A stretch of 26,059 nucleotides of DNA from a virus. Position numbers and translations under genes: made by a program. The stretch is taken from positions 1-26,059 of the IMG/VR virus record IMGVR_UViG_3300027816_000368; one strand, written 5' to 3'. The notes beneath the pieces were generated by a model. That model was not told the DNA's origin, ran no database searches, and saw only the letters and a program-made list of their open reading frames with translations. This document shows positions 1,277 to 20,953 of this stretch, one piece after another; position 1 is the stretch's first letter, and each line of letters opens with the position of its first letter.

Positions 1277-1512
1277 TATCTATATCTAGCTGCTTTTTTA
1301 GCTACATTCTTTGGCTGTGCTACAAACTGTTTACCTTTTCTATTACCTTCTGCTTTAGCTCTATTAGTAGCAGCTTTTTCAGCTGGACTTAGAGCTTTCC
1401 AAGCAGCATCTGGTAGATATCTTTTCTTACCTTTAGATGGAGTACCATCAGAAGTTCTCCACTTTTGCTTAGTCCAGTTTTTTAAAGACTGTTGTGACTT
1501 AGCTAAAGCCAT
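1276..1512 (-). CDS. Small basic protein, DUF5872-like (78 aa)
   Basis: A 78-residue lysine/arginine-rich protein: 21 K/R against 4 D/E. It contains SLKNWTKQKWRT, RYLPDAAWKALSP and a KQFVAQPKNVAKK tail. I recall this pattern from small proteins of marine phages and some algal viruses (DUF5872-type); that recall is not checked here. It sits between the large terminase (one-base overlap) and another basic protein (shared base at 1512). A nucleic-acid-binding or virion role is plausible from charge and position, but nothing shows a function directly. Confidence 0.8.
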   Translation of the reverse strand: MALAKSQQSLKNWTKQKWRTSDGTPSKGKKRYLPDAAWKALSPAEKAATNRAKAEGNRKGKQFVAQPKNVAKKAARYR

Positions 1513-16438: not shown

Positions 16439-16645
16439 ATGAGATGTTTAGCTTGTAATAGAAACTTAAATGACTTTGAGTCTACTAGGAAATCTGCTAT
16501 AACAGGTGAATATGTAGACTTATGTAACCATTGTTTTCATGAAGTAGAACAAGAAATCCCTACTAAAGAACGCGATGATCTGCGTTCTGAAGAAGAGATT
16601 TTTGATGACAATGTAAATCCTAATGACTTTGAAGCACCACTATGA
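16439..16645 (+). CDS. Zinc-finger protein (68 aa)
   Basis: A 68-residue protein with a C4 zinc site: CLAC (3-6) and CNHC (29-32). A strongly acidic tail follows (EEEIFDDNVNPNDFEAPL). Ribosome binding site AAAGGAA before the ATG. Similar small phage zinc-ribbon proteins are common but their roles vary. Its TGA (16643-16645) is the first base pair edge of the hairpin at 16644. Confidence 0.72.
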   Translation: MRCLACNRNLNDFESTRKSAITGEYVDLCNHCFHEVEQEIPTKERDDLRSEEEIFDDNVNPNDFEAPL

Positions 16646-16678
16646 TTGTCCGCAAACGCTTGGCGTGTGTCGGCAATC
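16644..16678. repeat. Hairpin, copy 2 of the repeated element, between convergent genes
   Basis: GATTG+CCG+ACGC (16644-16659, with a bulged T and an internal loop) pairs with GCGT+CGG+CAATC (16663-16678). It shares GTGTGTxxGCAATCTA with the hairpin at 12387-12428. It separates the rightward zinc-finger gene from the leftward pqqA and could stop or stabilise both transcripts. No T-tract on either side, so Rho-independent action is unlikely. Confidence 0.65.
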
Positions 16679-16686
16679 TAGGGGTG

Positions 16687-16758
16687 TTACTTGTTCATTA
16701 CATACATTGTAACTTCAAAGCCAAAGCGCATTTCAGTAGCTGCTGGTTTAGTCCACAT
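16687..16758 (-). CDS. pqqA: PqqA, precursor peptide of pyrroloquinoline quinone (23 aa)
   Basis: Host PqqE, PqqD, PqqB and PqqC convert one Glu and one Tyr of this peptide into PQQ, the cofactor of methanol and glucose dehydrogenases. The 23 residues open MWTKPAATEMRFG and continue FEVTMYVMNK. They contain the invariant E15-V-T-x-Y19 core and the MWxKPA start of known PqqA; K. pneumoniae PqqA is also 23 residues long, with E15 and Y19. Ribosome binding site AAAGGAGA (16765-16772) lies 6 bases before the ATG. It has its own promoter at 16807-16835 and a 5' hairpin. No pqqB-E genes are in the window, so the host must supply them. Lying on the opposite strand to all neighbours, it looks like an independent cargo gene. 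Confidence 0.92.
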   Translation of the reverse strand: MWTKPAATEMRFGFEVTMYVMNK

Positions 16759-16782
16759 GTTAAATCTCCTTTATAGTTTATG

Positions 16783-16800
16783 ATAGAATTTTCATTCTAT
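16783..16800 (-). promoter_or_regulatory. 5' hairpin of the pqqA transcript
   Basis: On the minus strand ATAGAAT-GAAA-ATTCTAT forms a 7-bp stem with a GNRA (GAAA) tetraloop. The predicted transcription start is near 16800, so the hairpin lies at the very 5' end of the mRNA, a position known to protect against RNase E. Confidence 0.6.
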
Positions 16801-16806
16801 ACTACT

Positions 16807-16835
16807 ATTATACTATAAAGAATGAAAACTGTCTT
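16807..16835 (-). promoter_or_regulatory. Sigma70-type promoter of pqqA
   Basis: Minus strand: -35 AAGACA (16835-16830, 4 of 6 matches), spacer of exactly 17 bases, -10 TATAAT (16812-16807, perfect). Start near 16800, then the 5' hairpin, then ribosome binding site and ATG at 16758. It gives pqqA expression independent of the rightward operons. Confidence 0.7.
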
Positions 16836-16868: not shown

Positions 16869-17045
16869 ATGAATAACTTTACGCATGCTATTGTAGATGA
16901 TGGTGAGATCATCAGAAAATTTAGATGGTCTCGACGAGAAGTTAAATGGTATAAAGATACCCATCCTGGAGTAGAAGTACTAGAACTACCTAAGCAATCT
17001 GAAAAAGTTTTTAACTTTGATGACTATGAAGAGGCACCTTATTGA
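16869..17045 (+). CDS. Hypothetical protein upstream of primase (58 aa)
   Basis: A 58-residue protein, MNNFTHAIVDDGEIIRKFRW…, with SRREVKWYKDTHPGVEVLEL and an acidic tail (FNFDDYEEAPY). I choose ATG 16869 because AAGGAA lies 7 bases upstream; a GTG at 16836 in the same frame would overlap the pqqA promoter. It overlaps the primase TTG start. Possibly a replication accessory by position. Confidence 0.65.
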   Translation: MNNFTHAIVDDGEIIRKFRWSRREVKWYKDTHPGVEVLELPKQSEKVFNFDDYEEAPY

Positions 17046-17734
17046 GTAAGTTTATTAGACATACATCATGCCCTAAGTGTGGATCTAGGGATAATCTTGC
17101 TGAGTATGATGACCATGTATGGTGTTTTGGTTGTAAGTATTACAAGACCAAGGATGATATACATACTCTACGAAGCAGATTGCAGAGTCAGCAGACGATG
17201 CTATCTGATGAGATTAATTTAGATCTTACTGACGATATACCATTGTCAGCTAAGCAATGGTTGCTTAAGTATGGCATTACTAACGAAGAGATCCGCCAAA
17301 ATAAAATTGCGTGGGATGCAAATAACCAGGTATTGATTTTGCATTATACGCAAAATTACTGGCAGGGTAGATGCTTTGGTAATCAGCATCAAAAGTATTT
17401 GTCTAAGGGTAATAAGCCATTGACTATTTACGGTAATGGTGATACAATTGTATGTGTGGAAGATATCTTATCAGCTATAAAGATTGCTAGGTTATCACCT
17501 ACATATTGTGCAACACCGCTACTTGGCAGTAGTATGCCCCTAGAAACTACACAATCGCTCTCAGAACAATTTTCTAATATCATAGTATGGTTGGATAGGG
17601 ACAAGGCTAAAGATGCGATTAAGATGGCAAGAAATCTGAAACAAAGGGGTATTAATAGTGAGGTAGTAATCTCACCTAAAGATCCTAAAGAATATGACAA
17701 AGGAGAATTACTTACTTGGTTGAAGAACAGATAA
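17042..17734 (+). CDS. DNA primase (zinc-binding and TOPRIM domains)
   Basis: The primase half of a T7-gp4-like pair; it makes RNA primers for lagging-strand synthesis. The 230 residues hold a C4 zinc ribbon (C10-x2-C13, C28-x2-C31) that reads the template. A TOPRIM catalytic domain follows, with VCVEDILSA (E140) and IIVWLDRDKA (D185, D187). Start is TTG at 17042, overlapping the previous stop, with GAGG upstream. It overlaps the helicase gene by 19 bases. In T7 both activities are in one polypeptide; here they are separate genes. Confidence 0.88.
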   Translation: MSKFIRHTSCPKCGSRDNLAEYDDHVWCFGCKYYKTKDDIHTLRSRLQSQQTMLSDEINLDLTDDIPLSAKQWLLKYGITNEEIRQNKIAWDANNQVLILHYTQNYWQGRCFGNQHQKYLSKGNKPLTIYGNGDTIVCVEDILSAIKIARLSPTYCATPLLGSSMPLETTQSLSEQFSNIIVWLDRDKAKDAIKMARNLKQRGINSEVVISPKDPKEYDKGELLTWLKNR

Positions 17735-18954: not shown

Positions 18955-19102
18955 TGCAACAGTACAAGATATTTTAGATTTTGATCATAGTATTTCAGTA
19001 GAAGATGCGGAAGACCTATTGCTTTTTTCTTCACAAGATGATACAATAGAAGAAGCTATTGATAAATTTTATGGAGAACCGCGAGGAGAATGCGCCCTTT
19101 AA
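18941..19102 (+). CDS. Hypothetical acidic protein (53 aa)
   Basis: A 53-residue acidic protein, MKICDATVQDILDFDHSISV…, helical, ending EEAIDKFYGEPRGECAL. It overlaps the helicase end by 14 bases and the polymerase start by 13, so it is embedded in the replication operon. Likely translated by coupling, with no clear Shine-Dalgarno beyond GCGGAGA upstream. No family recognised. Confidence 0.6.
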   Translation: MKICDATVQDILDFDHSISVEDAEDLLLFSSQDDTIEEAIDKFYGEPRGECAL

Positions 19103-20244
19103 TCATTGATGTTGAAACAACAATATCTAACAAAGGTAATCCCTTTGATAGAACTAATAAACTTTGTTATGTAGGAACTAATCATGGACTCTATCCGATT
19201 GAATATTCTAATAATCCGTATAAAAGTAATCTTGATAAGATTCAAGATCAGATTGATGCTGCTGAAGTTATCGTTGGTTTCAATATTAAATTCGATTTAC
19301 ATTGGCTTAAAAACTATAAGATAAACTTCGAAGGTAAAAGAATATGGGACTGTCAGTTGGTACATTATATCTTAACTAACCAGACTGAGATGTTCCCTAG
19401 TCTTAACCATGTGTGTAAGTACTATAACTTTGAAACTAAGATAGATGTTGTATCAGAAGAGTATTGGAAAAATAAAATAGATACTACTAACATTCCTGAA
19501 GACATTCTTAGAGAGTACTTAGCACAAGATATTAAACTAACACAACAAGTTTATGACATACAAGTTAAACAACTTGAAGCTTTACCGCATCTTAAGAGAC
19601 TTGTTAGCTTACACAATCAAGACTTAGTAGTCTTACAAGATATGGAGTACAGCGGTCTTTTATATGACGTGGTAAAAAGTAAACTTAAAGGAGATGAATT
19701 AGAAGATGAACTTATTAAGATTGATGAATGGTTGTTTCAGTTTCATCAGTGCCCTGATTTCAATCCCAATAGTACTGATCACCTTAGTGCTTTCCTCTAT
19801 GGTGGGGATATTGGCCTTAAACGGAGAGTGGTTGTTGGGACTTTTAAGACAGGCACTAGGGCAGGTCAACCTAAAGAACGTTGGGAAGACTACACTGTAA
19901 CATTTAAACGATTAGTTAATCCACTGAAAGGATCTGAGTTAATGAAAGAAGGGTTATACTCTACAGATGAGAATACTCTTAGGTCTTTACGTGGAACTAA
20001 AGAAGCTAAAGAGATCATAGAAACTTTACTATTCCGATCTACGATTGAGAAAAGATTATCCACATACTATCGTGGTTTAGTCAAATTGATTGAGGATCAT
20101 AACTGGGATACAGGAACTATCTTTGGTCAACTGCATCAGAGTGCTACAAGAACAGGTCGACTATCATCTAGTAAACCTAACTTACAAAACTTTGATGGAG
20201 AAATAAAAGAACTATTTGGATCTAGGTATGCTACTACAAGCTGA
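19090..20244 (+). CDS. DNA polymerase family A, N-terminal part (3'-5' exonuclease and palm start)
   Basis: A 384-residue polypeptide carrying the proofreading exonuclease: LIIDVETT (D7, E9), GFNIKFD (D69) and YLAQD (Y143-x3-D147) are all intact. The thumb follows, then the start of the palm with QSATRTGRLSSSKPNLQNF, a classic pol A motif, up to ELFGSRY. It stops at 20242-20244, just before motif A, which continues in the +1 frame. Ribosome binding site GAGGAGA before the ATG. If fused to the next frame, about 620 residues would result, close to a T7-type polymerase. Without it this part has exonuclease but no polymerase activity. Confidence 0.85.
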   Translation: MRPLIIDVETTISNKGNPFDRTNKLCYVGTNHGLYPIEYSNNPYKSNLDKIQDQIDAAEVIVGFNIKFDLHWLKNYKINFEGKRIWDCQLVHYILTNQTEMFPSLNHVCKYYNFETKIDVVSEEYWKNKIDTTNIPEDILREYLAQDIKLTQQVYDIQVKQLEALPHLKRLVSLHNQDLVVLQDMEYSGLLYDVVKSKLKGDELEDELIKIDEWLFQFHQCPDFNPNSTDHLSAFLYGGDIGLKRRVVVGTFKTGTRAGQPKERWEDYTVTFKRLVNPLKGSELMKEGLYSTDENTLRSLRGTKEAKEIIETLLFRSTIEKRLSTYYRGLVKLIEDHNWDTGTIFGQLHQSATRTGRLSSSKPNLQNFDGEIKELFGSRYATTS

Positions 20245-20953
20245 CGCAAAACAATTAGAGTGGGTTGGTGCTACGTACTTATCTCAAGATCAAGTAGCTT
20301 TACAGGAGATATGGGATAGTGTTGATCAACATTCTGACAATCAAAAAAGGTTTGGGTTACCAAGTAGACTTGTCGCTAAAACATTTGTTTTCAGACTTAT
20401 CTACGGAGGATCTGCGTACTCTTATGCAAACGATCCAAACTTTAAAGACATTGGAAATGAAAAGTTCTGGCAAGGAGTCATAGATCAATTCTATGATAAA
20501 TACAAAGGTCTTCGAGACTGGCACAAAAAGATTGTAGATGATGTTAAACGAGATGGGTATCTACGGATGCCTACAGGTAGAACATACCATTACAAACCTG
20601 ACCTTAAGTATAATAGAGCCGAGTGGCCACGCACCAAGATCCTTAACTATCCAGTGCAAGGACTTGGCGCTGACCTAATGGCTATAGCTAGGGTTAGTTT
20701 ACGAAATAGATTAAAAGAAAAGGAAGGAGTAACACTTGTTAATACAGTGCATGATTCAATAATACTTGACTTTAATCCTAATATATGGGATAATATAAGT
20801 ATAGTCAATTTAGTTGACAAATGTTTTAATGATATACCAGCAAACTTTAAGAAGTTGTTTGGTAAAGACTTCAACTTACCAATGAGAGTTGAATGTCAAA
20901 TTGGCCCCACTTGGGGAAATATGGAGGTAGTACATGCAAGTAACCGTGATTGA
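20216..20953 (+). CDS. DNA polymerase family A, C-terminal part (polymerase active site)
   Basis: A 245-residue frame carrying the catalytic core: motif A LLQADAKQLEW (Asp about residue 10), motif B RLVAKTFVFRLIYGG, and motif C VHDSI. It is +1 relative to the exonuclease part and overlaps it by 29 bases. The frame opens at TTG 20216, or ATG 20228, but neither has a convincing ribosome binding site. So it is either translated by +1 frameshifting near TCT-AGG-T, made as a second subunit by re-initiation, or an artefact of a one-base error. All three catalytic motifs are intact. Confidence 0.85.
   Translation: MDLGMLLQADAKQLEWVGATYLSQDQVALQEIWDSVDQHSDNQKRFGLPSRLVAKTFVFRLIYGGSAYSYANDPNFKDIGNEKFWQGVIDQFYDKYKGLRDWHKKIVDDVKRDGYLRMPTGRTYHYKPDLKYNRAEWPRTKILNYPVQGLGADLMAIARVSLRNRLKEKEGVTLVNTVHDSIILDFNPNIWDNISIVNLVDKCFNDIPANFKKLFGKDFNLPMRVECQIGPTWGNMEVVHASNRD

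Follow-up and report, generated by a model that had tools for sequence, protein, structure and literature searches.

A host-type pqqA gene in an MEP401-like phage genome and its relatives among phages of methylotrophs

PQQ derives from the peptide PqqA, the residues E15 and Y19 of which are turned into PQQ. Among the Pqq proteins, PqqA alone serves as a substrate, one molecule being destroyed for each PQQ, whereas the enzymes of the pathway turn over. In cyanophages, psbA encodes a photosystem protein that is lost by damage, and some copies of this gene contain group I introns. The two cases are alike in that a phage would resupply one used-up pathway protein, and some phage pqqA genes are also intron-bearing, but they differ in that the photosystem protein is lost by damage, whereas the PqqA precursor is consumed as a substrate. 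Phage PqqA has already been reported for the Lake Baikal virus VP_266, a predicted Methylophilaceae virus for which the same purpose was proposed as is proposed here (Coutinho et al. 2020, PMC7678222), and pqqA, pqqE and pqqD were among the virus-encoded genes of a reservoir study (PMC13188868). VP_266 is T4-like and also encodes methanol dehydrogenase, whereas the stretch of DNA analysed here (a virus record of 26,059 bases, hereafter referred to as the window) is MEP401-like (Zobellviridae) and carries pqqA alone.

The window gene, its host counterpart and its genomic setting

The gene and the neighbours used to define its locus are as follows.

16687..16758, minus strand: pqqA, 23 codons, MWTKPAATEMRFGFEVTMYVMNK (translation; PF08042 and TIGR02107 profile matches)
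16439..16645, plus strand: ORF of 68 amino acids, convergent with pqqA, function not assigned (no Pfam or PHROG match)
17042..17734, plus strand: DNA primase, the marker for records spanning the pqqA site (phrog_47, E=6.4e-26)

The translation of the minus strand agreed exactly with the pqqA coordinates and length, and the peptide contains the E-x-x-x-Y core (E15-V-T-M-Y19). It scored 42.4 bits (E=6.4e-11) against Pfam PF08042 and 40.4 bits (E=1.8e-10) against the equivalog TIGR02107, above the curated cut-offs of 21.1 and 20, respectively. These results bear out the original prediction of a 23-codon minus-strand pqqA with an E15/Y19 core, and the identification of the ORF as a genuine pqqA is well supported by the two profiles. 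The PHROGs profile search returned no match for the gene, which fits its having been overlooked in phage annotation.

Alignment with host sequences, which had been suggested as a check, showed no difference between the window peptide and a PqqA of Methylophilaceae that is among the commonest in these hosts. The window gene further resembles the host gene (PF08042, TIGR02107) in having a predicted promoter and a ribosome binding site of its own; it differs in that it stands alone in a replication module, and the phage records tested lack PqqE. Judged from its sequence, the window pqqA is a host-derived homologue kept under selection. It is predicted to act as the substrate of PqqE/PqqD and to be converted to PQQ, the host having an identical peptide. 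Methylophilaceae are described as having 3 to 12 copies of pqqA, against usually one of each other pqq gene (PMC4109929). We detected pqqA in 149 of 150 sampled Methylophilaceae genomes, 141 of which had at least two copies by table count; prophages or contamination from binning may account for some of these copies. The OM43 strains LSUCC0401 and KB13 have three copies each, and in both strains an ORF of 32 amino acids with a Cys-rich end (CTCPIC) lies between tandem pqqA copies (loci L528 and L527). That the host of the window phage makes PQQ, as originally predicted, is well supported by the identity of the peptides, by the near-constant presence of pqqA in the family, and by MEP401, which infects an OM43 methylotroph.

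The window encodes a large terminase, a primase, a DnaB-like helicase, a split family A DNA polymerase and an amidoligase, together with a weak match to a glutamine-amidotransferase. Its nearest cultured relative is the OM43 phage MEP401 (Zobellviridae); the two have 18 genes in common, which are about 62% identical. The terminase, primase, helicase and DNA polymerase genes surrounding pqqA identify a bona fide phage genome, and pqqA lies in minus orientation within the plus-strand replication module of this MEP401-like phage. The family A polymerase is split over two overlapping ORFs (19090-20953), as reported for MEP401-type phages. In the window lineage, pqqA was present in all seven records spanning the site; eight of the 25 polymerase or terminase relatives contain the primase, the eighth ending inside it. 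The lineage records without pqqA are those without the neighbouring primase or ending within it, and relatives with TerL only say nothing about pqqA loss.

Distribution and selection among methylophages

A tblastn search of 50,697 phage records gave 12 matches, corresponding to nine cultured methylophages (Venkman, P19250A, MEP301, MEP401, MEP402 and four Melnitz isolates; 9/9 found), the environmental phage MW202481, which was the only other true phage record matched, and two records named “Acinetobacter phage MD-2021a” (CAKLQF020000010.1 and CAKLQH020000055.1). The last two were set aside, the one examined being a bacterial chromosome with pqqBCDE. MEP431-434 and Venkman EXVC038S have taxonomy entries, their genomes lying outside the set searched, and HIM624-A is a partial genome consisting of the structural module only (PMC10580990). 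In IMG/VR, two degenerate DNA patterns recovered at least 156 PqqA genes, including that of the window, with at least 118 distinct 23-codon sequences; these counts are lower bounds, biased at each pattern's own codons. When 51 pqqA-bearing records were grouped by shared genes, six multi-member groups and nine singletons were obtained, corresponding to at least six genus-level groups. PqqA was found in all 50 of the pqqA-bearing records tested with profiles, none of which had PqqE over the cut-off. Relative to the earlier single reports, pqqA thus proves to be widespread across methylophages, and the search of related phages originally suggested as a check found it in both the lineage relatives and the nine cultured methylophages.

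The gene had been predicted to be easily missed because of its shortness, and six phage records examined agree with this: pqqA is unannotated in those of MEP401, Venkman, MEP301 and P19250A, and is overlapped by an opposite-strand hypothetical ORF in those of Melnitz and MW202481. The annotation of Melnitz by its authors involved five gene callers and manual curation. In their main texts (supplements apart), the papers on Venkman, MEP301, MEP401/402 and Melnitz do not name pqqA as a phage gene. The gene has therefore been missed by both gene callers and curators in published methylophage genomes.

We estimated pN/pS only at the codons left free by each search pattern, because pattern codons bias the counts. 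Genes retrieved with the first-half pattern gave a ratio of 0.08 over codons 10-23; those retrieved with the second-half pattern gave 0.28 over codons 2-12. Third-position identity was 0.67 within and 0.61 between lineages, against a random expectation of 0.63, and synonymous sites are therefore near saturation while the viral PqqA peptide has been kept. Residues W2, K4, P5, R11, G13, E15, T17 and Y19 were invariant among the 118 distinct viral genes listed, several of these positions lying within the search patterns; one variant outside those 118, seen in L606 and L624, carries Cys instead of T17. Selection on viral pqqA is strongly purifying: neither a lost reading frame nor a lack of synonymous bias, the outcomes that would have spoken against the original prediction, was observed.

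Predicted expression signals, leader RNA and group I introns

The sites flanking the window gene, all on the strand of pqqA, are listed below.

16807..16835, minus strand: sigma-70-like promoter, AAGACA-17-TATAAT (pattern scan; layout recurs in the relatives L404 and L399)
16783..16800, minus strand: 5' stem-loop where the transcript is predicted to start, ATAGAAT-GAAA-ATTCTAT (folding; class enrichment; relatives)
16766..16772, minus strand: ribosome binding site AAAGGAG, separated from the ATG by 7 nt (sequence; similar sites in relatives)
16640..16681, minus strand: 3' hairpin directly after pqqA and the convergent plus-strand ORF (folding; relatives)

The ribosome binding site and the GAAA-loop hairpin of the original prediction were located at 16772-16766 and 16800-16783, respectively. 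For the promoter with 17-base spacing, the scan alone was at chance level, with two promoters found against 2.0 expected in shuffled sequences, but the layout recurs in the lineage relatives L404 and L399 (ATGACA-17-TATAAT). The 5' hairpin of the window has a folding energy of -4.4 kcal/mol (z -1.4 by itself). It occupies the same position in L404 and L399, and recurs with different stem letters in L400 and L402. Among 112 non-redundant leaders of viral pqqA, 29.5% had a perfect stem of at least 7 bp, versus 3.1% in shuffled sequences; farther upstream the corresponding values lay much nearer each other, at 6.4% versus 1.7% and 3.7% versus 2.1%. This test separates the 5' hairpins more clearly than does folding energy, which sets them only modestly apart from the control region (mean z -1.08 versus -0.71), and 5' hairpins are enriched as a class in viral pqqA leaders. 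No Rfam family matched in the 5' region of the window gene. The 3' hairpin, absent from the original prediction, is stronger (-16.2 kcal/mol, z -5.0) and lacks a T run; its apical pairs in L399 and L404 have changed letters with complementarity kept. It is probably a 3' end or processing signal shared by pqqA and the convergent ORF. Taken in order, the predicted promoter, 5' hairpin, ribosome binding site, gene and 3' hairpin suggest a self-contained monocistronic unit.

Other phages and some hosts have a different leader, which is absent from the window. The leaders of 12 phage pqqA genes (L036, L065, L070, L084, L119, L137, L193, L217, L068, L037, L034 and L087) share UCAAG-N3-GA...UC-N3-YGAUCUG and a covarying stem (covariation 0.481 versus 0.113 in shuffled alignments). 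This leader RNA precedes pqqA by about 30-47 nt in many phages and, in OM43 hosts, precedes the first of the tandem copies. The model matched once per record in the searched records, before pqqA, with the exception of one weak match (E 0.42). It matched once each in 14 of the 150 Methylophilaceae genomes, these 14 being 1.1-1.4 Mb in size. In 12 of the 14 loci the script placed pqqA 41-46 nt downstream, and L566 was read by eye (OM43 host leader loci with pqqA: L557-L559 and L561-L570). With the host sequences added, covariation was 0.464 versus 0.145 in shuffled alignments. Searched against Rfam, the phage loci gave no family match for the leader. An H-type pseudoknot was considered and dropped, its second stem not being held in all aligned members on inspection by eye. 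One of the leader-bearing methylophage contigs, L084, also has a match to the ROSE_3 RNA thermometer (1445-1510, plus strand; 54.3 bits, cut-off 43).

The leader pattern identified 98 stretches in IMG/VR, 82 of which were followed by an intact pqqA and two of which were cut; the other 14 were mostly followed by a truncated, variant or intron-bearing pqqA. In 10 of these 14, pqqA was broken off at one common place, where a group I intron was detected (Rfam RF00028; L653 84.9 bits, L597 65.3 bits, against a gathering score of 50). Twelve phage contigs with both exons (L597, L653, L185, L661, L662, L663, L665, L583, L602, L625, L626 and L629), the window not among them, have introns of 231-278 nt at the same site in codon 14, and removing the intron in silico yields intact PqqA in all 12. 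None of the 150 host genomes showed the interrupted site, and the intron therefore looks phage-specific. A literature search found no paper joining a group I intron with pqqA.

Proposed role and alternative explanations

We consider it probable that the window carries a genuine pqqA from a Methylophilaceae host, kept by selection, with which the phage resupplies PqqA so that methanol oxidation by the host continues. The gene would have been acquired from an OM43 or LD28-type host and retained by selection, and the phage would express PqqA from its own monocistronic unit during infection. Host PqqE/D, proteases and PqqB/C would then convert Glu15 and Tyr19 of the phage peptide into PQQ, which would load methanol dehydrogenase (XoxF), sustaining methanol oxidation, energy and C1 carbon as host expression falls. 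On host shutdown, the supply of PqqA would fail first, the Pqq enzymes and methanol dehydrogenase persisting; as PqqA is consumed and the enzymes persist, the phage would need only pqqA. Resupply of pqqA alone matches the hosts' amplification of pqqA alone. Infection would thereby raise the PQQ supply, to the benefit of the phage. Methanol dehydrogenase is the most likely user of this PQQ, and a methylotroph host argues against glucose dehydrogenase, the other enzyme originally put forward. Some observations count against this explanation: hosts already hold several pqqA copies, so the added phage dose might be small; PQQ has been added to OM43 medium (PMC9004378), so some strains may import it; and no PQQ alcohol dehydrogenase match was found in the 41 pqqA-bearing phage records tested.

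The same sequence evidence would equally fit a phage PqqA that feeds PQQ synthesis for redox or stress protection, or for PQQ release, rather than for methanol-dehydrogenase flux, as it does not distinguish the end use; this is nonetheless unlikely, since all the cultured pqqA phages infect one methylotroph family, in which PQQ methanol dehydrogenase is the established PQQ user. Phage PqqA might instead stop PQQ synthesis by competing for or inhibiting PqqE/PqqD as a decoy. Titration of the chaperone PqqD by so short a peptide is conceivable, but none of the results speaks for it. Loss of the reactive residues would be expected in a decoy, whereas the two modified residues and most of the core are unchanged among the distinct viral genes listed and the host substrate has the same sequence as the window peptide, making this very unlikely.

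The locus might act as DNA or RNA rather than as a peptide gene, either as a site for recombination or integration that matches host pqqA, or as a regulatory RNA. Host pqqA is conserved and multi-copy, and structured 5' regions are present, but near-saturation of synonymous sites under a conserved peptide, the completeness of the genes with their ribosome binding sites and the restoration of the frame by intron removal render this explanation slightly less probable again than a decoy. The least credible possibility is that of a neutral passenger copied from the host: the gene is small and cheap and its peptide equals that of the host, but its occurrence in at least six lineages and the strong purifying selection contradict neutrality.

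The proposed resupply of PqqA to the host pathway may extend from the window to the phages of methylotrophs in general. With somewhat less assurance than for the window gene, we regard pqqA as likely to be a near-universal, overlooked core gene of these phages and the methylotroph counterpart of cyanophage psbA, a consumable substrate being resupplied in at least six lineages, some with the covarying leader RNA of OM43 and some with phage-specific group I introns. If the gene works as proposed, phages of an abundant group of marine methylotrophs would directly support methanol oxidation during infection, through a consumed substrate rather than an enzyme. The cultured pairs MEP401/FZCC0133 and Venkman/H5P1 make the proposed role directly testable, and the leader RNA and introns pose new regulatory questions in streamlined ocean bacteria.
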